Part shown: positions 47,178 through 56,735 of the stretch, piece by piece
Numbering within the stretch: the stretch's first letter is position 1
How the letters are laid out: each line of letters begins with the position of its first letter
Source: Mycobacterium montefiorense
GTDB lineage: Bacteria > Actinomycetota > Actinomycetes > Mycobacteriales > Mycobacteriaceae
Reading direction: 5' to 3'
Length of the DNA stretch: 62,037 nucleotides
Assembly: GCF_003112775.1 (NCBI RefSeq)
Contig: NZ_BFCH01000011.1
Coordinates: forward strand, 1-62,037
Position numbers and translations under genes: made by a program
The notes under the pieces: model-generated
What the model was told of the DNA's origin: nothing
What the model saw: only the letters and a program-made list of their open reading frames with translations
The model's database searches: none

Positions 47178-47291
47178 CGGAATCGGTCCTCTCATCCGCA
47201 CTTGGTCGTGCTGACCCGAACGCTAACCGTGGGCACCGACAGTTTTTGGCGAGCGCGAACCGGCGTGGGAACGCCGCCGGTGTCGGTCGCG

Positions 47292-49190
47292 ATGCTTAAC
47301 GTCACGCCCATGGGTGTGACTGGTGGGACTCAACTGAATTTCGCCGACCTGGGATCCAGCGCGGAATCGAGCTGGACGCCACTCGAAGAAACCCCGCTGC
47401 GCGAGACCACCTTCGTCGTGGTGGACCTGGAGACGACCGGCGGGCGCGCCCGCGGCGGCGACGGGACACGTGCCGACGCGATCACCGAGATCGGCGCGGT
47501 CAAGGTTCGCGGCGGCGTCGTGCTCGGAGAATTCGGCACCCTGGTGGACCCGCAGCGCAGCATCCCGCCTCAGATCATCCAGCTCACCGGCATCACCACG
47601 GCCATGGTGTGTGACGCCCCGACGATCGACGCGGTGCTGCCGATGTTTCTGGAGTTCGCCGGCTTGGACTGCGGGGCGGTGCTCGTCGCCCACAACGCGG
47701 GGTTCGACGTCGGGTTTCTGCGGGCCGCCGCCGAGCACTGCGAAATTCGTTGGCCCCAGGCACGAGTGCTGTGCACCGTACGACTGGCGCGCCGCGTGCT
47801 GAGCCGTGAGGAATCCCCCAGTGTGCGGCTGGCGGCCCTGGCCCGGCTGTTCGCCGTCGCCACCCAGCCCACCCACCGGGCCCTCGACGACGCCCGCGCC
47901 ACCGTCGAGGTGCTGCACACACTGGTCGAGCGCGTCGGCAATCAGGGCGTGCACACCTATGCCGACCTGCGCTCGTATCTGCCCAACGTGACGCCGACCC
48001 AGCGCCGCAAGCGTGTGCTCGCCGATCAGCTGCCGCACCGTCCCGGGGTCTACCTGTTTCGCGGCCCCTCGGGCGAGGTGCTCTACGTCGGCACCGCTGT
48101 TGACCTGCGCCGGAGGGTGAGCCAGTACTTCACCGGCGCCGACCCTCGCGGCCGGATGAAGGAGATGGTCACACTGGCCGGCGCGGTCGACCACGTCGAG
48201 TGCGCGCACGCGCTCGAGGCCGGGGTGCGCGAGCTGCGGATGCTGGCCGCGCACGCGCCGCCGTACAACCGCCGGTCGAGGTTCCCGCAGCGCTGGTGGT
48301 GGGTGGCGCTGAGCGACGAGGCCTTCCCCCGGCTGTCGGTGGTGCGCGCCCCGCGACACGACCGCGCCATCGGGCCGTTTCGGTCCAGCGCCGATGCGGC
48401 CGACACCGCGAGGCTGCTGGCACGTTTCACCGGAATCCGAACGTGCACAACACGACTCGGACGTTCGGCGCTGCACGGACCGGCCTGCCCGGAAGTCGAA
48501 GTGTCGCCCTGTCCCGCCGCCCGCGACGTGACCGCGGTGCAATACGCCGCGGCGACACAGCGGGCCGCGGCGCTGATCGACGGCGCGGACAACAGCGCGT
48601 TAATCGCGGCCGTCGATCAGATCACCGTGCTGGCCGAGCATCGGCACTACGAGAGCGCAGCACGGCTGCGCGACCGCACCGCCACCGCCGTCGAGATGCT
48701 GTGGCGGGGCCAGCGGCTGCGGGCGCTGGCCGCACTGCCCGAGCTGATCGCCGCGGCCCCCGACGGCAGTGGGGGCTACCACCTCGCCGTGATCCGCTAC
48801 GGCCAGCTCGCCGCGGCCGGCAACGCCAGGCGCGGGGTGCCGCCGATGCCGGTGGTCGACGCCATCCATGCTGGCGCACAAACGATTTTGACGGCCAGTG
48901 CCCCGCTGGGCGGTGCGCTGGTCGAAGAGACCGCCCTGGTCGCGCGCTGGCTGCTGACCCCGGGAGTGCGCATCGTGCGGGTCGCCGACGGCGTCGGGTG
49001 GGCCTCACCGGTGCGATCCGCCGGCGCCTGGGCGGGGTGGGCGGCCGCGGCGCGCTCGGCGCGGCTGGCCCGCACACAGGATCCAGCGCCGGTCCCGGAC
49101 TCGGACCTGCCGGCAGTGCACTACACGATTACGCAACGGAGCACCGGGCGCCCTAACGCTGAGATCCAATGCTCCCCGAAGGGAGCCTGA
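47292..49190 (+). CDS. DEDDh exonuclease fused to a GIY-YIG nuclease domain (Rv2191 type)
   Basis: A 632-residue fusion. The N-terminal DnaQ-like exonuclease has [10 protein letters not shown] (metal Asp and Glu), [10 protein letters not shown] and [10 protein letters not shown] (ExoIII/DEDDh motifs). The middle GIY-YIG domain ([23 protein letters not shown]) resembles UvrC and Cho. A C-terminal UvrC-like region follows. It is probably involved in DNA repair. I chose ATG 47292; ATG 47310 or the more distant 47202 are possible. Its stop marks the left boundary of the accessory island. Confidence 0.9.
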
Positions 49191-49320
49191 CCGATACCCA
49201 TCCGCTTCGGCCGCGTACTACCAGCCGAAGCCGAACAGATCGCGGATCAACCTATACCGCAACAACTTTCATTAATCGACGCACCCAGATCAGAGTTCGT
49301 CAATCGCCGGGCCGGGACAA

Positions 49321-49369
49321 ACGAGATGTTTCCTCAATGGACACAGGTGTAAACGATATGTTTCCTCAC
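49321..49369. repeat. Pair of 17-bp direct repeats, mobile-element-like end
   Basis: ACGAGATGTTTCCTCAA (49321-49337) and ACGATATGTTTCCTCAC (49353-49369) differ at two positions and lie 32 bp apart. Multiple short copies of an end sequence are typical of IS21-type element termini, and the site is where core synteny breaks. No transposase is present, so this would be only a remnant; the assignment to a family is not certain. Confidence 0.5.
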
Positions 49370-49377
49370 TAGATAAA

Positions 49378-49437
49378 TGAAACTCTAAATATAGACAAGT
49401 GAAACTCAAAAAATATAGACAAATGAGACTCAAAATT
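49378..49437. repeat. Three AT-rich direct repeats, period 22-24 bp
   Basis: TGAAACTC...ATAGACAA occurs at 49378-49398 and 49400-49422, and a third, partial copy (TGAGACTCAAAATT) at 49424-49437. The run directly follows the 17-bp repeats and precedes the precursor promoter. It may be the inner part of the same element end or a protein-binding array. The stretch 49191-49573 otherwise holds only the promoter below and no gene. Confidence 0.6.
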
Positions 49438-49445
49438 ACGAGCGG

Positions 49446-49475
49446 TTGACGGCATACATGCCGCCTGACTACCCT
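49446..49475 (+). promoter_or_regulatory. Predicted promoter of the RiPP precursor with embedded palindrome
   Basis: TTGACG (49446-49451) and TACCCT (49470-49475) are 18 bp apart, a good fit to the mycobacterial housekeeping pattern. The palindrome GGCATACATGCC (49451-49462; 5-bp arms, 2-bp centre) overlaps the -35 edge and spacer, a place where a repressor would block transcription. The predicted leader to the precursor ATG is about 90 nt. Confidence 0.55.
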
Positions 49476-49573
49476 ACGTTAGGTATCCATTCACATGGTT
49501 ACGTCAGAGCGAATTATGGTGCTCTTTGGAAATTTCCGATTCATCTCGCAAGATCAATCAGGAGGATTTACCC

Positions 49574-49684
49574 ATGGGATATTTAGCTGTTTTCAACGCC
49601 GCGGATGTCGACGATTCGGCTATCTCTGCAGAGATAGCCGCTACAATCGACCGAATTGACACCGCCGCTGAGGATTCCGTCTAA
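49574..49684 (+). CDS. Candidate RiPP precursor peptide, leaderless, 36 residues
   Basis: A 36-codon ORF with AGGAGG at 49560-49565, 8 nt before ATG. The peptide starts MGYLAVFNAADV and continues as an acidic Ala/Ile/Asp/Ser/Thr-rich helix-like tail ending DTAAEDSV; it has no Cys. A tiny ORF with a strong binding site just ahead of a YcaO gene is the usual layout of RiPP loci. The N-terminus resembles the bottromycin precursor as I remember it (MGPVVVFDC), whose core follows Met1 and whose remainder is a follower. If so, the core here is near GYLAVFN and the acidic tail is the follower recognised by the enzymes. Confidence 0.75.
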   Translation: MGYLAVFNAADVDDSAISAEIAATIDRIDTAAEDSV

Positions 49685-49696
49685 TCCTAAACTACT

Positions 49697-49738
49697 GGTC
49701 GCCGGGCCGTAATCAACCACAATTGTGGCCCGGCGACC
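49697..49738 (+). terminator. Attenuator-like hairpin between precursor and YcaO genes
   Basis: GGTCGCCGGGCC (49697-49708) and GGCCCGGCGACC (49727-49738) form a perfect 12-bp GC-rich stem with an 18-nt loop, 13 nt after the precursor stop. No T-run follows, so it is more likely a partial terminator or an mRNA-stabilising 3' end. Such hairpins typically give much more precursor than enzyme transcript. Confidence 0.7.
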
Positions 49739-49794
49739 GGGTCAATTCGCATCGGACCAACACTGCAGATTTGAATACCGGGGGCTGCGTTGAT

Positions 49795-49867
49795 CCCTCA
49801 CACCTCAAGAACGCTCCATTTAGTAGATGCCTGATAGCGTTCTACAGATACGATCGAGTTTGTCAGA
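49795..49867 (+). repeat. 73-bp direct repeat, copy 1 (spans the YcaO start)
   Basis: The first 29 bp (CCCTCACACCTCAAGAACGC and the next nine bases) are identical to 51349-51377; the rest matches copy 2 with scattered changes and indels up to TTTGTCAGA. Weaker similarity extends about 30 bp farther upstream (CAGATTTG against CAGATGTG). The YcaO ATG at 49827 lies inside it. Confidence 0.85.
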
Positions 49868-51242
49868 TTTCACATATTTTCAGCGCGATACTGGTCCTCG
49901 CGGAAATCCATCGAAGAAGGCACTGCAAAGAAAGAAGGCACCTCTGTTCGGACCTCTTTGCCAGCCATACGAGCGGGAATTATCCCTGTCCGAAGCGCAA
50001 CATCGAATAGATTTGGAGCTTGCGGAGCTGGGATGGAGAGTTGAGGTAGGCGGTGCGCTAAACGATGCGCTTTCTGCTGCAACTGCAGTGCTCACCGATA
50101 GATCTGGCCGAAAGGTACAAGATGGGCGCGGCGCAGGTAAAGGAATGCCTTTGAATTCGAGAATCGGTGCGATATTCGAAGCGCTGGAACATGTATATTC
50201 TGGGCCGATTCTTACGGGACATCTAGACACTCATACCATTGACGTCTCCAAATTGGCTGCTGGGCCACTCGCTCATGACCCGGCTATCATTGAACTGGCA
50301 GCGGGGATCGCTGCCGATACTCCGATCGCGTGCTTGAAATACTGCTTCGCCCACATACACGGTGGCAGTGCGATCAGTGTTACAATATTTCTTTGGGCAC
50401 CGTGGTTCACATCGGTAGCGGCCGATCTGTGGCGTCAAAGTATTGGAGACGGGGTCGATTACTCGCGAATCAAATCATATTCAGTGAATACTGGTTGCGC
50501 GATCGGCGCCAGCGAAGATGAGGCAGTACTGCATGCACTAAACGAGTGGGTCGAGCGGGACGCACTTTCGGTGTTTCTACTTACCAGTATTTACGATTCC
50601 ACTACCCCGCCACGGCGCATTAGCCGTCAGATTCTGAGCCCGTCAAGTGTCAAGTTGTTGACTCGTGCCGAGAAAACGATCGGAAAGGCTATCGATTTAT
50701 TTGATATCACAACAGATATAGAGGTACCTGCAGTTCTTGCGACGGTATCTGGAGAATCTGATCTCAACAGTCCTCACTACGGACTTGGGGTGTCGATTTC
50801 AGCCGATCATGCATTGGAACGTGCGGTCACCGAGGTCGTACAGGCGGTTCTTCTAGCGCCTTTAGCAGCTCAAGAAACACCACCGATTGATCTTAGCCAA
50901 ATCTTTCGTGGTCACCCCCAGTTACTGGCGTGCGCACGTATGCAAATCCCTGAGAGTGTCGTCGACCTGCCGAGCACTGCGCGCCGATTCTCGGCGCGAG
51001 AAGATCCCCGAGCCATAAAAGCACAGCGTCATCAAGTAACCAAGCGCATCGCCGCCGCCGGTCACGACATCCTTATTCGGCGACTGGCAACACTGCATCA
51101 TGGCACCACCATTGTCCAAGTGCAGTGCCCAGGCTTGGAAAGGTTCCACCTGGTAACCAACGGTCACGTCACAATTCCTGGTCAACGAGCCAATCGGTTA
51201 AGAAAGTCCTTTAATTGTCCAGGGCGTCGGTTACGTTCGTGA
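49827..51242 (+). CDS. Stand-alone YcaO-family ATP-dependent peptide backbone-modifying enzyme
   Basis: A 471-residue YcaO protein. It shows the three ATP/Mg-binding blocks: GRGAGKG...AIFEALEH (about 100-122), NTGCAIGASEDEAVLHALNEWVERDAL (about 221-247) and GVSISADHALERAVTEVVQA (321-340), and a C-terminal VQCPGLERF...TIPGQR segment. It lacks the fused E1-like partner and the Pro-rich tail of azoline synthetases. YcaO enzymes activate peptide amide oxygens to form azolines, thioamides or amidines; no Cys in the precursor and no TfuA partner argue for amidine. There is no clear ribosome binding site before ATG 49827. AT-richer than the core genes. Confidence 0.92.
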   Translation: MPDSVLQIRSSLSDFTYFQRDTGPRGNPSKKALQRKKAPLFGPLCQPYERELSLSEAQHRIDLELAELGWRVEVGGALNDALSAATAVLTDRSGRKVQDGRGAGKGMPLNSRIGAIFEALEHVYSGPILTGHLDTHTIDVSKLAAGPLAHDPAIIELAAGIAADTPIACLKYCFAHIHGGSAISVTIFLWAPWFTSVAADLWRQSIGDGVDYSRIKSYSVNTGCAIGASEDEAVLHALNEWVERDALSVFLLTSIYDSTTPPRRISRQILSPSSVKLLTRAEKTIGKAIDLFDITTDIEVPAVLATVSGESDLNSPHYGLGVSISADHALERAVTEVVQAVLLAPLAAQETPPIDLSQIFRGHPQLLACARMQIPESVVDLPSTARRFSAREDPRAIKAQRHQVTKRIAAAGHDILIRRLATLHHGTTIVQVQCPGLERFHLVTNGHVTIPGQRANRLRKSFNCPGRRLRS

Positions 51243-51348
51243 TTTTCGGCTTTAGCCTGGAGTCGGTTTGGTGGACCGCCAGCACCCGGCGAGAATATTC
51301 GGATTCAAGCGAAATTACAGATGTGGAGTGCCCAAGGGGCGCGGAAGC

Positions 51349-51421
51349 CCCTCACACCTCAAGAACGCTCCATTTAGCAGATACTGACAGCGTTCTACAC
51401 ATGACGATCAAATTTGTCAGA
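51349..51421 (+). repeat. 73-bp direct repeat, copy 2 (degenerate YcaO-start region)
   Basis: Matches 49795-49867 but the start codon is changed (ATG to ATA with a one-base deletion). The stretch 51243-51561 (319 bp) has no convincing gene: the repeat is followed by text that still encodes a VLHMTIKFVRPYYRYEH-like run, loosely parallel to the YcaO N-terminus, before stopping at 51490. Confidence 0.85.
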
Positions 51422-51561
51422 CCGTACTACCGCTATGAACATCCCTGCGATATTGGTAAATGTGTATCCGTAGCTAATGGTAATGTTTAGGTGTGGCGTG
51501 AACGCCGTCGTAACAGCACCAAGATCGAAGGGTTCGTACCCGCGATTTGATGGGCTAAAAA

Positions 51562-52500
51562 ATGAGTAATCTAGATGTGTTGTGCGCCGTCAGTCGTAGT
51601 TCCGGTTGGCTAGATGTCGGTAATCAGCATAGGATTAGATGGTGGGATAGCGGAATCGGCGACGGACCAACTATGGTAATCGTGCATGGAGGTCCGGGAG
51701 GGCGTAGTGGGCCTCGACATCGCAATCTGGTCGACTTAACGCGATGGCGTGTAATTCAATACGACCAGCGTGGATGTGGCAACTCGACTCCTCGCGGTCA
51801 GTACAGCCACAATACTTTCGACGATCTGGTTGATGACCTTGAACGGCTTCGCCTACATCTGCGGGTACGAAGTTGGGTTGTCTTAGGCTTTTCGTGGGGG
51901 ACAACGATTGCCTTGGCATGGGCATCTCGATACGGTAGTTCTGGTCACGCGCTAATACTGAGTGGAGTCTATCTCGGTCGTAGATGCGACCTAGCAATAG
52001 GGCGTCCGCATCCCCAGGTGCCCTTCGCCGCATGGAAAGATGTAGTGGCCAACATCGCCGAGAATGAGCGGAATCGGGTGGCAGCTGCTTATTTATCCAG
52101 ATTCCGGGACCGTACTCACCCAGACCACCGTGGTGCCATCCGACGCTGGATCGCACTTGATGGCGCGGTCAGCGGATTGCCCTACGCACCCGATACCATC
52201 GTTGTAGAACCAGGAATGGGCGAATCGCTGTCGATCGAAGCACATTACGTGGCCCACGACTTTTTTTTACCAGTTGACGGAGTTATTCCGCTCATTAAAT
52301 CGATACCTACTGCTATGCAGATCCATGTAGCACAGGGGTTGAATGATAGCGCGTGCCGCGAGAGTGCTATCGCACTGAACATGGCGCGGACCATCAAATT
52401 GACCTGGGTTTTGGCGGGACATTCGGTCTTAAACCCGAAACTGACTTCCGCTGTATTTGACAGCACTGAATATGTCCGTTTAACAATGGACTGTTTATGA
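51562..52500 (+). CDS. Alpha/beta-hydrolase of the proline iminopeptidase (S33) family, RiPP cluster
   Basis: A 312-residue hydrolase with the full proline iminopeptidase signature: oxyanion-hole HGGPGG (42-47), YDQRGCGNSTPRG (67-79), nucleophile Ser111 in GFSWGTT, likely Asp262 (LNDSAC) and His287 (AGHSV). It is therefore probably catalytically active. In the cluster it could trim N-terminal residues, cleave the follower or modify the macrocycle; the bottromycin cluster also has an alpha/beta-hydrolase (BotH, an epimerase). It shares ATGA with the methyltransferase. Confidence 0.88.
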   Translation: MSNLDVLCAVSRSSGWLDVGNQHRIRWWDSGIGDGPTMVIVHGGPGGRSGPRHRNLVDLTRWRVIQYDQRGCGNSTPRGQYSHNTFDDLVDDLERLRLHLRVRSWVVLGFSWGTTIALAWASRYGSSGHALILSGVYLGRRCDLAIGRPHPQVPFAAWKDVVANIAENERNRVAAAYLSRFRDRTHPDHRGAIRRWIALDGAVSGLPYAPDTIVVEPGMGESLSIEAHYVAHDFFLPVDGVIPLIKSIPTAMQIHVAQGLNDSACRESAIALNMARTIKLTWVLAGHSVLNPKLTSAVFDSTEYVRLTMDCL

Positions 52501-53438
52501 TCGCTCATTCGAATTCGCGTCAAATCGAGGTCGACACGTATAACCAAGTGCATACTACCGGGTTCGGTGCGGCCGGTAAGGTATGTTCGTGGCTTGAGTC
52601 CACCCCTGCGTGTCTAAATCAATATTTCCTGCTTCGTCATCGAGATGAAACGTGGTTGGGAAGGAAGATACTCACTCACGATTCGAGAGGCTATAGGATT
52701 TCTAGCATTCTAGCTCCCCATATGATCGCTGGAATATACCTTGGAAGTCAGGTTGACAACTGTGGTGTCACTTTCCACTATCGCGCAGCCCATAAAGCGG
52801 AACGCTTGAATATATTTAGGGGCGCAGATCCTCTCGCGACCGAGATTATTTTTCCTTATCCGCTCCTCGACAATGCCGGAAACGAATACGTTAGCCCTTC
52901 GGGCGAATGGGACGAAAATCTTACTCTTATAAACGGTTTAGACGCCGATGAACTGCATTTGCGCGAGCATGGTTTTAATCTAGCCGAGAAGTTCCTCGTT
53001 CCGGGTTCGGTTATTTATGATCCGGCCTGCTCGACAGGTACCTACCTGGGCTCGCTTAGTCGATACTTCCCTAACTGTAATTTCATTGGGTCAGATCGAT
53101 CGTTTGCGATGACGCAGCGTGCTGCGGAGAAAATTCCACGTGTATTCGTTGCCGATGCTGGCAATGCCCCTATCGCGAACGGTAGTATCGATTTGCTTAT
53201 TCTGAGATTTCTTAACGCGGAAGTAATGCCTAGGACGATTGCCGGTGACCTATTTATCCAGCTATCGAACCTCGTGTCTCCGAGGGGCCGTATATTTATG
53301 TTCGGCCACACTCCGCTGCTGCTGGACGTTTCCTCGGCGGCTCACGCAGCTAATTTGCAGATTGAAAGCCAAATTGGTGTAGAACCCCGCTCAGCAGGAA
53401 TTTTTCAATTTTACCAACTGGGTCGCGGTGCTACGTGA
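52497..53438 (+). CDS. SAM-dependent class I methyltransferase, RiPP cluster
   Basis: A 313-residue protein. The C-terminal Rossmann methyltransferase starts at about 170, with motif I YDPACSTGTY (174-183), an acidic residue at the end of strand 2 (Asp200 in GSDRS) and a VADAGNAPIANGSIDLLILRF segment. The N-terminal 160 residues form an unrecognised domain with GVTFHYRAAHKAERL. It probably methylates a carboxylate, hydroxyl or amine on the peptide. It overlaps both neighbours by 4 nt (ATGA, GTGA). Base composition is low in G+C. Confidence 0.85.
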   Translation: MIAHSNSRQIEVDTYNQVHTTGFGAAGKVCSWLESTPACLNQYFLLRHRDETWLGRKILTHDSRGYRISSILAPHMIAGIYLGSQVDNCGVTFHYRAAHKAERLNIFRGADPLATEIIFPYPLLDNAGNEYVSPSGEWDENLTLINGLDADELHLREHGFNLAEKFLVPGSVIYDPACSTGTYLGSLSRYFPNCNFIGSDRSFAMTQRAAEKIPRVFVADAGNAPIANGSIDLLILRFLNAEVMPRTIAGDLFIQLSNLVSPRGRIFMFGHTPLLLDVSSAAHAANLQIESQIGVEPRSAGIFQFYQLGRGAT

Positions 53439-54700
53439 CAACCGTCGACAATCAAGGGATACGTCTGCCTAGGGTACTGCGCCCATTGCGGCACCGTGAC
53501 TATCTGCTGCTGACTGTGGGGCTCGCGGTTACACTGCTGGGCGCCGGGATGTCGACGGTGGCGCTGTTCTGGCAGATCATCGCCATGGGAGGTGGGCCGG
53601 CGCAGGTCTCCCTCGTGATGACCGTGTGCGGTCTTGGGCTTTTGGCCACACTGCTGCCGGCCGGTGTCGCTGCCGATCGGCTGCCCCGGCTGTGGGTGAT
53701 GCGGGTTTCGCTTGTGGCGCAAGCGATTCTACTACTGGTGCTCGGCTGGCTAACGGTGACCGATCGGGTCCAGATCTGGCACTTTGGGTTGGCCGGTCTG
53801 ATCCTTGGGATCGCCGAAGGCATGTACTTCCCTTCGTACACAGCCCTGCTGCCATCGCTGCTCCCAGCCGAGGACCTGTTATCGGCCAATGGGACTGGGG
53901 GCGTATTACGACCGGGGCTACAGCTCGCCGCCGGGCCAGCGCTTGGTGCTTTCGTAGTGAAGCTCTGGTCGACCGGCAGCGCCTTCCTGACACAAGGCGT
54001 GTTGATGGTCGTCGCGGTGCTGATGCTGTCGTTGATGCGCACCGGTTCCTCGAAGCCGATTCTCGATGGTGAAAATCGCGGAACGGCGGTGGCGGACCTG
54101 CTGGAAGGCGCGCGCTACATGGTGCGCACCAGCTGGTTCTTCGCCACCCTGCTTTTCGCCAATGGTTACGTGTTGGTCGTGATCGGACCCATTGAGGTGC
54201 TGGTGCCCTTCATACTTCGCGACCTGGGCGGTGGTCCTGGCACCCAGGCTATGGTGCTGGCGATCTTCGGCATCGCCGGGGCGGTCGGGGCGATCACGGT
54301 GTCCTCGCTGTTTCTCGCGCGGCGCTACCTGACGGTGATGCTGGCCATGTGGGGGTTGGGTTCGTTACCGCTCATCGTGGTGGGGCAGACCCACTCGATC
54401 TGGATCATTGTGGCGTCCAGTGTGGTGGTCGGCGCTACCGGTCAGGCCGCTCAGGTGATCTGGGGCACGCTGTTGCAGCGGCGAATGCCGCCGGAAATGC
54501 TGGGTCGGGCATCCAGTCTCAACTTCTTCGTCGGACTGGTGATGATGCCGGCCTCATACGCGTTAGCCGTTCCGGCGGCGCAGCTGATGGGTGTTGCCGG
54601 GGTGTTCGTCATCGCGGCGGTGACACCCGCCGTCCTTTCGGTCATCGTGCATGTTGCGGCTCGGTTGGGCCGAGACGAAATTGCGCACTCTCTGCAGTAA
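53435..54700 (+). CDS. MFS exporter, probable product efflux/self-resistance
   Basis: A 421-residue 12-helix major facilitator of the EntS/MFS_3 type. Helices start at about residue 22 (HRDYLLLTVGLAVTLLGAG), with AADRLPRLWVMR as the A-motif loop between helices 2 and 3 and a cytoplasmic loop near 195-215. The start GTG 53435 overlaps the methyltransferase stop. Its G+C content is like the core genome, unlike the three preceding genes, so it may have been recruited separately. Expected role: export of the mature peptide and immunity. Confidence 0.88.
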   Translation: MTTVDNQGIRLPRVLRPLRHRDYLLLTVGLAVTLLGAGMSTVALFWQIIAMGGGPAQVSLVMTVCGLGLLATLLPAGVAADRLPRLWVMRVSLVAQAILLLVLGWLTVTDRVQIWHFGLAGLILGIAEGMYFPSYTALLPSLLPAEDLLSANGTGGVLRPGLQLAAGPALGAFVVKLWSTGSAFLTQGVLMVVAVLMLSLMRTGSSKPILDGENRGTAVADLLEGARYMVRTSWFFATLLFANGYVLVVIGPIEVLVPFILRDLGGGPGTQAMVLAIFGIAGAVGAITVSSLFLARRYLTVMLAMWGLGSLPLIVVGQTHSIWIIVASSVVVGATGQAAQVIWGTLLQRRMPPEMLGRASSLNFFVGLVMMPASYALAVPAAQLMGVAGVFVIAAVTPAVLSVIVHVAARLGRDEIAHSLQ

Positions 54701-54877
54701 GCAGTGCGTTCGCGGCCAGCGCAAGCGCCCATCGAGTTCGAGGTAGAGCCGCAGCACACCTCGGACGATCAGACGCTCAGCGACCGCCTGATTAGGTTCA
54801 TTCTGCTGGTGATCCCCGATGGACGCTCTCGCCGAGACGGCTTCCGAAACACCAAGTTGCGCTTGACTCCCAGATGC
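54701..54877. other. Right boundary of the accessory island, no gene recognised
   Basis: 177 bp between the MFS stop and the trpD stop. On the minus strand one frame is open throughout and reads like the end of a protein ([20 protein letters not shown]), but it has no start and no recognised relative. It looks like debris from an earlier gene. No inverted copy of the left-edge repeats is visible here. Confidence 0.4.

Positions 54878-56735
<1,858 letters not shown>

Follow-up and report, generated by a model that had tools for sequence, protein, structure and literature searches.

The 62,037-nucleotide stretch of Mycobacterium montefiorense DNA analyzed here (contig NZ_BFCH01000011.1, positions 1 to 62,037; hereafter the window) carries an insert of five intact genes, encoding a short precursor peptide, a YcaO protein, an alpha/beta-hydrolase, an S-adenosylmethionine (SAM)-dependent enzyme, and a major facilitator superfamily (MFS) exporter. 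Very likely, this is a real, acquired gene cluster for a ribosomally synthesized and post-translationally modified peptide (RiPP) of the leaderless YcaO type. As to its product, we favor, with confidence falling slightly short of even, a pathway in which YcaO and an enzyme resembling the isonocardicin synthase NAT are predicted to give an N-terminally cyclized peptide beginning MGYLAVFN..., bearing a 3-amino-3-carboxypropyl (ACP) group on its tyrosine.

The candidate precursor gene and its YcaO neighbor

The first gene of the insert encodes a peptide starting MGYLAVFNA..., in which tyrosine becomes the second residue once the methionine is removed. Its layout is presumed to be that of an N-terminal core followed by an acidic C-terminal follower: the net charge after residue 9 is -7, compared with -10 in bottromycin. 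Such acidity alone is weak evidence, because 34 of 544 background open reading frames (ORFs) are equally acidic, the background being a set of 546 small ORFs drawn from the compared loci and not from whole genomes. The peptide has no Cys, and with no Ser or Thr in its first 14 residues either (the first Ser is residue 15, and another is residue 18), no azoline is possible there. A protein search for homologues of the precursor found none. Even so short an ORF is very likely real, judging by its relatives: it exceeds chance because in 16 of 17 related loci ycaO is immediately preceded by a similarly built ORF that has a Shine-Dalgarno (SD)-like site. This agrees with an earlier reading made from the sequence only, which had proposed a 36-residue precursor gene with a strong binding site.

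The YcaO, rightly taken by that sequence-only reading as a stand-alone protein (Table 1), retains GAGKG (residue 102), FEALEH (117), NEWVERDA (239), and RAVTEVVQ (332), which we take to be its ATP/Mg motifs; the region in common with its relatives begins near residue 38 to 49. A protein search returned 65 proteins, including the window's own. The three nearest relatives, one of them named as Saccharothrix, were 48 to 50% identical, and further ones were mostly 37 to 46% identical (Nocardiopsis, Streptomonospora, Actinomadura, Streptomyces, and others), with lower values beyond. Two trees were built: one of 88 rows, from which one of the 65 proteins (shorter than 351 residues) was left out, and one of 53 hand-picked rows. 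The window YcaO and its three near relatives formed a group (support, 100/100) within a 43-row clade (100/99). The YcaO groups with YcaOs flanked by small ORFs of like design. The sequence-only reading had named as contrary evidence a grouping with non-RiPP YcaOs and a small ORF not conserved in relatives, and on this comparison it was not refuted.

A genome scan with the YcaO retrieved the 17 related loci (L022 to L038). In all except that of Saccharothrix (L022), the ORF directly upstream of ycaO encodes 31 to 39 amino acids, always starts with MAC, and ends in an acidic tail, as in MACAGYEWTVPLENADDIAPAVDELDEETAE; these precursors, MACAGYEW... among them, contain Cys. The 16 Nocardiopsis-type loci concerned (L023 to L038) hold the closest large YcaO family, 38 to 43% identical to the window's, and share with it the short, acidic-tailed precursor directly upstream, yet their precursors begin differently and no NAT-like gene was found among them. 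In the seven loci inspected for it, a methyltransferase gene (with Pfam assignments for two) lies upstream in the opposite direction. A second set came from the family of genome G387 (probably Pseudonocardiaceae; 354 genomes), in which 10 genomes matched the YcaO at 1e-40 with scores of at most 277 bits (the window itself scores 606): MGLHDAIYRAQKDKPELAETEQRILDELTERD... or a near variant (MGLHDAIY type) stands upstream of ycaO in 8 of the 10 loci, another MG peptide does so in L162, and L163 has no ORF with an SD-like site. From these sequences, a presumed N-terminal core with an acidic tail as follower looks to be the general layout for this YcaO superfamily. Another member of the superfamily, on a plasmid of Streptomyces sp. 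NBC_01707 (L170:4734-4895), comprises a MGTGDLKLLCTAATG... peptide, a YcaO, and a SagB family dehydrogenase.

Within the genus, YcaO matches at E 0.001 were found in 15 of 297 genomes, counting M. montefiorense itself, which had a single match; the others reached 33 to 34% identity over most of their length, with short pieces up to 41%. In the genus, the YcaO family was thus not found in any genome but its own. A mycobacterial sister system was accordingly rejected, the upstream peptides also differing in the three loci compared. Short ORFs upstream of ycaO in these loci belong to a different peptide family: LTEAE(R/Q)A(V/L)LAQAG in L002 and L004 (= L103 and L105), and LTPAELAVLKLL in L003 (= L104). 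L103 holds a tandem ycaO pair.

An isonocardicin synthase-like enzyme and its recurrence beside YcaO

The fourth gene product had been labeled a methyltransferase, a name that does not fit: sequence comparison places the protein in the family of isonocardicin synthase (NAT). Pfam recognized only a methyltransferase fold. A PDB search with the single protein returned isonocardicin synthase 8zhu at E 3.7e-24 (its residues 88 to 326 aligning with query residues 71 to 311; next hit, 5e-4), and a search with a 20-sequence family profile returned the same structure at E 5.7e-68 (profile positions 45 to 324 of 326; next hit, 4e-9). The family signature DPACSTG...RFLNxEV...GHTPLL has counterparts in 8zhu, and one relative (P0068) carries the name isonocardicin synthase from its source. 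The acceptor of NAT is a phenol, and its substrate, nocardicin, is a nonribosomal product; unlike NAT, the window enzyme is encoded beside a ribosomal precursor. NAT is the aminocarboxypropyl transferase of isonocardicin and is not homologous to NAS, CntL, or MccD, according to PMC10491745. The mass shifts of -18 or +16 Da anticipated by the sequence-only reading are therefore not the whole set, since a homologue of isonocardicin synthase makes +101 Da likely as well.

In the genus, the NAT-like protein matched 4 of 297 genomes, namely, its own and three others with short, weak matches; it was not found in phages. When a NAT-like profile (A2; 18 of 32 search proteins, the window protein, and that of the Saccharothrix locus) was run over the compared loci, strong matches were confined to the window's own loci, the Saccharothrix locus, and plasmids of Pantoea and Acinetobacter. 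In a tblastn search of plasmids, the YcaO matched 16 records, and among these were all three matched by the NAT-like protein, from Pantoea sp. PSNIH1, Pantoea eucrina, and Acinetobacter venetianus (L168, L169, and L172). There the genes for YcaO and the NAT-like protein are adjacent, with a 4-base overlap as annotated in L168 and L169, and upstream of them lies a 43-amino-acid ORF, MGYLNSGISNSNSENANKAVLTIEEEEVLASASQADEESQSED (MGYLNSG...), whose first four residues, MGYL, are those of the window precursor. For two random background small ORFs, the probability of sharing residues 2 to 4 is 0.0019. This ORF is missing from the gene tables in two of these three records, tables that by their own description are incomplete. 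The plasmid locus is an independent pairing of YcaO with a NAT-like gene and resembles the window in its MGYL precursor, YcaO, and NAT-like enzyme, in the same order, but differs in that no hydrolase gene lies between the last two, no MFS gene is annotated beside them, and a FeeM-like acyltransferase comes next. The latter, an N-acyl amino acid synthase further along the Pantoea locus (L168:10247-11035; Pfam E 3e-26), could acylate the product. A Vibrio plasmid YcaO was rejected as an instance of the same system: an ABC transporter adjoins it, and it has no NAT-like gene.

In the Saccharothrix locus, a NAT-like gene (product 44% identical to the window's) also follows ycaO. Between the two lies a piece resembling the hydrolase (L022:11288-11395), as if the same order had decayed. 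Its score over a 500-base stretch was 30 bits, whereas 200 mononucleotide shuffles of the 295-base gap reached 24.3 at best; the result is suggestive and no more.

The identities previously given to the two other proteins, an alpha/beta-hydrolase and an MFS exporter, were upheld (Table 1). The hydrolase most resembles prolyl aminopeptidases (1qtr, E 1.8e-40): its GxSWG (catalytic Ser) and IExHY (substrate-site Glu) align with 1qtr, and its Asp and His were assigned by motif only. At 155 bits, the protein falls below the NCBIfam equivalog cut-off of 260. Removal of Met1 and action on the follower are both conceivable roles for it, but it may have neither. Relatives of the MFS protein were present in 32 of 60 same-genus genomes at 1e-40, including its own; the best of the others was 62% identical and lies in a different gene neighborhood. 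Because the genus holds such relatives elsewhere and none matched in the exonuclease-trpD stretches fetched from relatives, the pump may have been recruited.

The insert and its genomic setting

All five genes lie on the forward strand of a 5.7-kb insert that was read directly from the window (Table 1). In 12 of 12 same-genus relatives, the flanking exonuclease gene and trpD are convergent neighbors whose alignments end no more than about 113 bases apart, bearing out the earlier claim of an insertion between core genes. Eight order-level relatives from outside the genus were also compared; seven had the exonuclease gene, and five of these seven had trpD within the fetched flank, with gaps of at most about 460 bases. 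GC content is 0.50 to 0.53 in the first four insert genes, 0.63 in the MFS gene, and 0.71 in each flanking gene, and GC at third codon positions is about 0.5, 0.76, and 0.85, respectively; by composition, the first four genes look foreign.

Table 1. Features of the insert and its flanks
Feature	Position	Strand	Remarks
Insert	49191..54877	.	Flanked by exonuclease gene and trpD
DEDD-exonuclease gene, left flank	47202-49190	+	NCBIfam PRK07883.1-1, above its cut-off
Ribosome-binding site of precursor	49560..49565	+	AGGAGG, eight bases before ATG
Precursor peptide gene, 36 aa	49574-49684	+	MGYLAVFNAADVDDSAISAEIAATIDRIDTAAEDSV; same design beside related YcaO genes
Hairpin between precursor and ycaO	49696..49739	+	18-pair stem, no T run; -36.5 kcal/mol for folded stretch 49690-49760
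Stand-alone YcaO, 471 aa	49827-51242	+	PF02624, E 8e-32
S33 alpha/beta-hydrolase, prolyl-aminopeptidase-like, 312 aa	51562-52500	+	GGPGG 43, GFSWGT 109, IEAHYV 225, AGHS 285
Isonocardicin synthase-like SAM enzyme, 313 aa	52497-53438	+	Predicted ACP transferase
MFS exporter, Tet(V)-like, 421 aa	53435-54700	+	358 bits, below model cut-off 640
trpD, right flank	54878-56032	-	Name assigned from Pfam domains

The 4-nucleotide overlaps described earlier (ATGA and GTGA) are real and join the hydrolase, SAM enzyme, and MFS genes only: 142 bases separate the end of the precursor gene from ycaO, and 319 bases separate ycaO from the hydrolase gene. The single promoter-like element of the sequence-only reading was likewise located (49490-49517; 9/12 match), but it is no better than chance, as shuffled sequences average 2.3 such sites. 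The hairpin downstream of the precursor gene is possibly an attenuator or a stabilizer of a transcript end. A stretch of about 170 bases that spans the start codon of ycaO (49729-49895) recurs in degenerate form before the hydrolase gene (51285-51457); both copies carry the inverted repeat AGAACGCT...AGCGTTCT, which in the first copy encloses the ycaO ATG, and the repeat may be an operator, an RNA hairpin, or the remnant of a second ycaO. At the insert's left edge, an AT-rich tract (49320-49440) contains repeated ATGTTTCCTCA and AGACAA(G/A)TGA(A/G)ACTCAAAA units, resembling the end of a mobile element.

The insert had no DNA match among plasmids (near mode) or phages (distant mode), and a phage or plasmid origin was set aside on that ground and on the absence of the NAT-like protein from phages. 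A scan of viral contigs gave no confirmed relative of the YcaO family, and Rfam gave no match at the gathering threshold. A defense system was also rejected, as PADLOC reported only one weak domain match, in the SAM enzyme (E 6e-5; 20 bits).

Predicted chemistry and competing explanations

What the sequences show is that the genes and motifs are intact, that they lie in an insert, which gene families they belong to, that a precursor is conserved in position, and that YcaO, a NAT-like gene, and MGYL recur together; we infer every chemical step of the favored pathway and all of its product chemistry. The precursor would be made in excess, with its strong ribosome-binding site and the hairpin before ycaO. 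A host enzyme or the S33 hydrolase would take off Met1 and free the amine of Gly1. YcaO, probably held by the acidic follower, would activate, with ATP, a backbone amide close to the N terminus, and attack by Gly1 on that amide would form an amidine (-18.011 Da): a bottromycin-type macroamidine if the carbonyl of residue 4 were engaged, or a six-membered ring as in streptamidine if it were that of residue 2. The NAT-like enzyme would transfer the ACP group of SAM to the phenol of Tyr2 (+101.048 Da), releasing methylthioadenosine, after which the hydrolase would trim the peptide and the MFS pump would export it. The calculated [M+H]+ values are 783.404 (linear), 765.393 (amidine), and 866.441 (amidine plus ACP) for a GYLAVFN core and 854.441, 836.430, and 937.478, respectively, for GYLAVFNA.

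Streptamidine is itself an amidine, and its cluster, as presented in PMC8442711, resembles that of the window in having a YcaO, a hydrolase, and a precursor without a core rich in Ser, Thr, or Cys. Judged against the same account, the window differs in that its insert has no AmiB-like partner, no AmiE flavin dehydrogenase, and no iron-transporter (Fec-like) genes, its core is N-terminal, and its YcaO has no Pro-rich C terminus; the comparison is with the cluster as described and not with AmiD itself. No precursor with the HLSA motif was recognized in the Streptomyces-type YcaO loci examined, and AmiD is hence not in our trees. Alternatively, YcaO might install a thioamide, or an azoline on Ser15 or Ser18, with the NAT-like enzyme acting as predicted. 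The chemistry of a YcaO is not readable from sequence alone, the precursors of relatives hold Cys, and one related plasmid cluster, that of Streptomyces sp. NBC_01707, includes a SagB family dehydrogenase, all of which leave room for this explanation. Yet the five insert genes include no TfuA gene adjacent to ycaO, as a thioamide-forming pair would have, no E1/ocin-ThiF partner of the kind found with azoline-forming enzymes, and no dehydrogenase, and the precursor lacks Cys altogether and has neither Ser nor Thr ahead of residue 15. On this evidence, we consider a non-amidine product fairly unlikely.

Bottromycin is the best mechanistic counterpart of the window cluster, which is itself not a bottromycin cluster. 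The two have in common an MG precursor with an N-terminal core and an acidic follower (MGPVVVFDC... in L096), a stand-alone YcaO, and an exporter gene. When the cores GYLAVFNA and GPVVVFDC are aligned, Gly1, Val5, and Phe6 are identical, a score that 2 of the 544 background ORFs also attain. A YcaO profile (A1; 15 of the 65 search proteins) was scored against the two YcaOs of each bottromycin locus (L096 and L097), both assigned by gene order, with BtmE being the one beside the precursor and BtmF the other: the BtmF-type proteins reached 129 and 124 bits and the BtmE-type proteins 36 and 41, compared with 56 for the best PDB chain and 56 to 75 for the long-frame YcaOs of a class search (L054 to L073). 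By this measure BtmF-type YcaOs rank best among the characterized YcaOs scored, which did not include streptamidine AmiD. According to PMC5103208, the amidine requires both BtmF and BtmI, which cooperate in S. scabies; the paper proposes the Val4-Val5 amide as the site of attack by Gly1. The macroamidine of the sequence-only reading accordingly stays plausible, on the core alignment and the BtmF-type scores, as does its description of a leaderless precursor with a follower served by a RiPP YcaO.

Membership in the bottromycin family, which "bottromycin-like" might imply, does not hold. The precursor gave no match to the bottromycin precursor model NF033414 at E up to 1 or up to 10 (among 392 Streptomyces-type genomes, 2 have a match above the model's cut-off), and a common clade of the window YcaO family with BtmF was rejected (approximately unbiased test, P = 0.00047), a result to be read with the long branches in mind. 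There is one YcaO instead of two, and the core has no Cys8. As the sequence-only reading had stated, radical SAM methyltransferase, P450, amidohydrolase, and aminopeptidase (M17) genes are missing, this count covering the five insert genes and not the rest of the genome. A reduced bottromycin-type pathway could still be imagined, forming a macroamidine between Gly1 and residue 4, with the SAM enzyme as an ordinary O-methyltransferase and the hydrolase and MFS protein replacing the bottromycin peptidase and exporter. Besides the core alignment and the BtmF-type scores, it would account for the loss of Cys8 together with that of BtmE, the P450, and the amidohydrolase. The SAM enzyme, however, is of the NAT family, the hydrolase, SAM enzyme, and MFS protein had no tblastn match at E 1 in either bottromycin locus, and BtmI is absent, although a review (PMC7136475) describes both bottromycin YcaOs as partner-free. 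Together with the unmatched precursor model and the rejected clade, these points make such a pathway unlikely. Very unlikely is a cluster that once made a peptide but is now decaying or silent: the want of a promoter above chance, the degenerate copy of the ycaO start, the decayed-looking Saccharothrix relative, and the finding that, apart from its own, none of the 297 same-genus genomes has a YcaO exceeding about 34% identity across most of the protein are set against five intact ORFs with catalytic motifs, stop/start overlaps, and a strong ribosome-binding site all retained.

Several observations weigh against the favored amidine-plus-ACP pathway. ACP transfer by the window enzyme is predicted from homology. 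The deep part of the YcaO tree is weak, with long branches, the clade with BtmF was rejected, and uncharacterized YcaOs outscore BtmF with profile A1 (e.g., at 140 bits and, in L102, outside the families already named, at 171 bits). The YcaO is 100% identical across the three plasmid records, which therefore count as one instance. The MGYL in common suggests a common pathway but does not prove one, because the Pantoea YcaO is only 26% identical to the window's and groups elsewhere, beside Pseudomonas-type rows and the YcaO of the Vibrio plasmid. The role of the hydrolase is a guess: the Pantoea locus has no annotated gene for it, and tblastn found no match to it in the Nocardiopsis-type loci. 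The closest relative, that of Saccharothrix, may be a dead cluster, since no precursor can be recognized there and what resembles the hydrolase is a decayed piece. Nor was the small-ORF background genome-wide.

In the literature covered, mainly titles and abstract openings of open-access papers, neither the combination of YcaO, a NAT-like enzyme, and a leaderless precursor nor an ACP modification of tyrosine on a RiPP was found. With more doubt than confidence, we put forward the cluster as a possible founding example of an unrecognized RiPP class, occurring in actinobacteria and on gammaproteobacterial plasmids and having a leaderless MGYL core, an N-terminal amidine, and a homoseryl-like ACP ether on tyrosine. 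Precursor genes of this kind are easily overlooked, as the plasmid gene tables illustrate, and the recurring layout of an N-terminal core, an acidic tail, and an adjoining YcaO extends beyond bottromycin. The cluster offers a small, testable system for asking what the many stand-alone YcaO proteins do. Should the NAT-like enzyme work as predicted, the transfer of aminocarboxypropyl from SAM to tyrosine in a peptide would add a new modification to those of RiPPs and give peptide engineering a handle.

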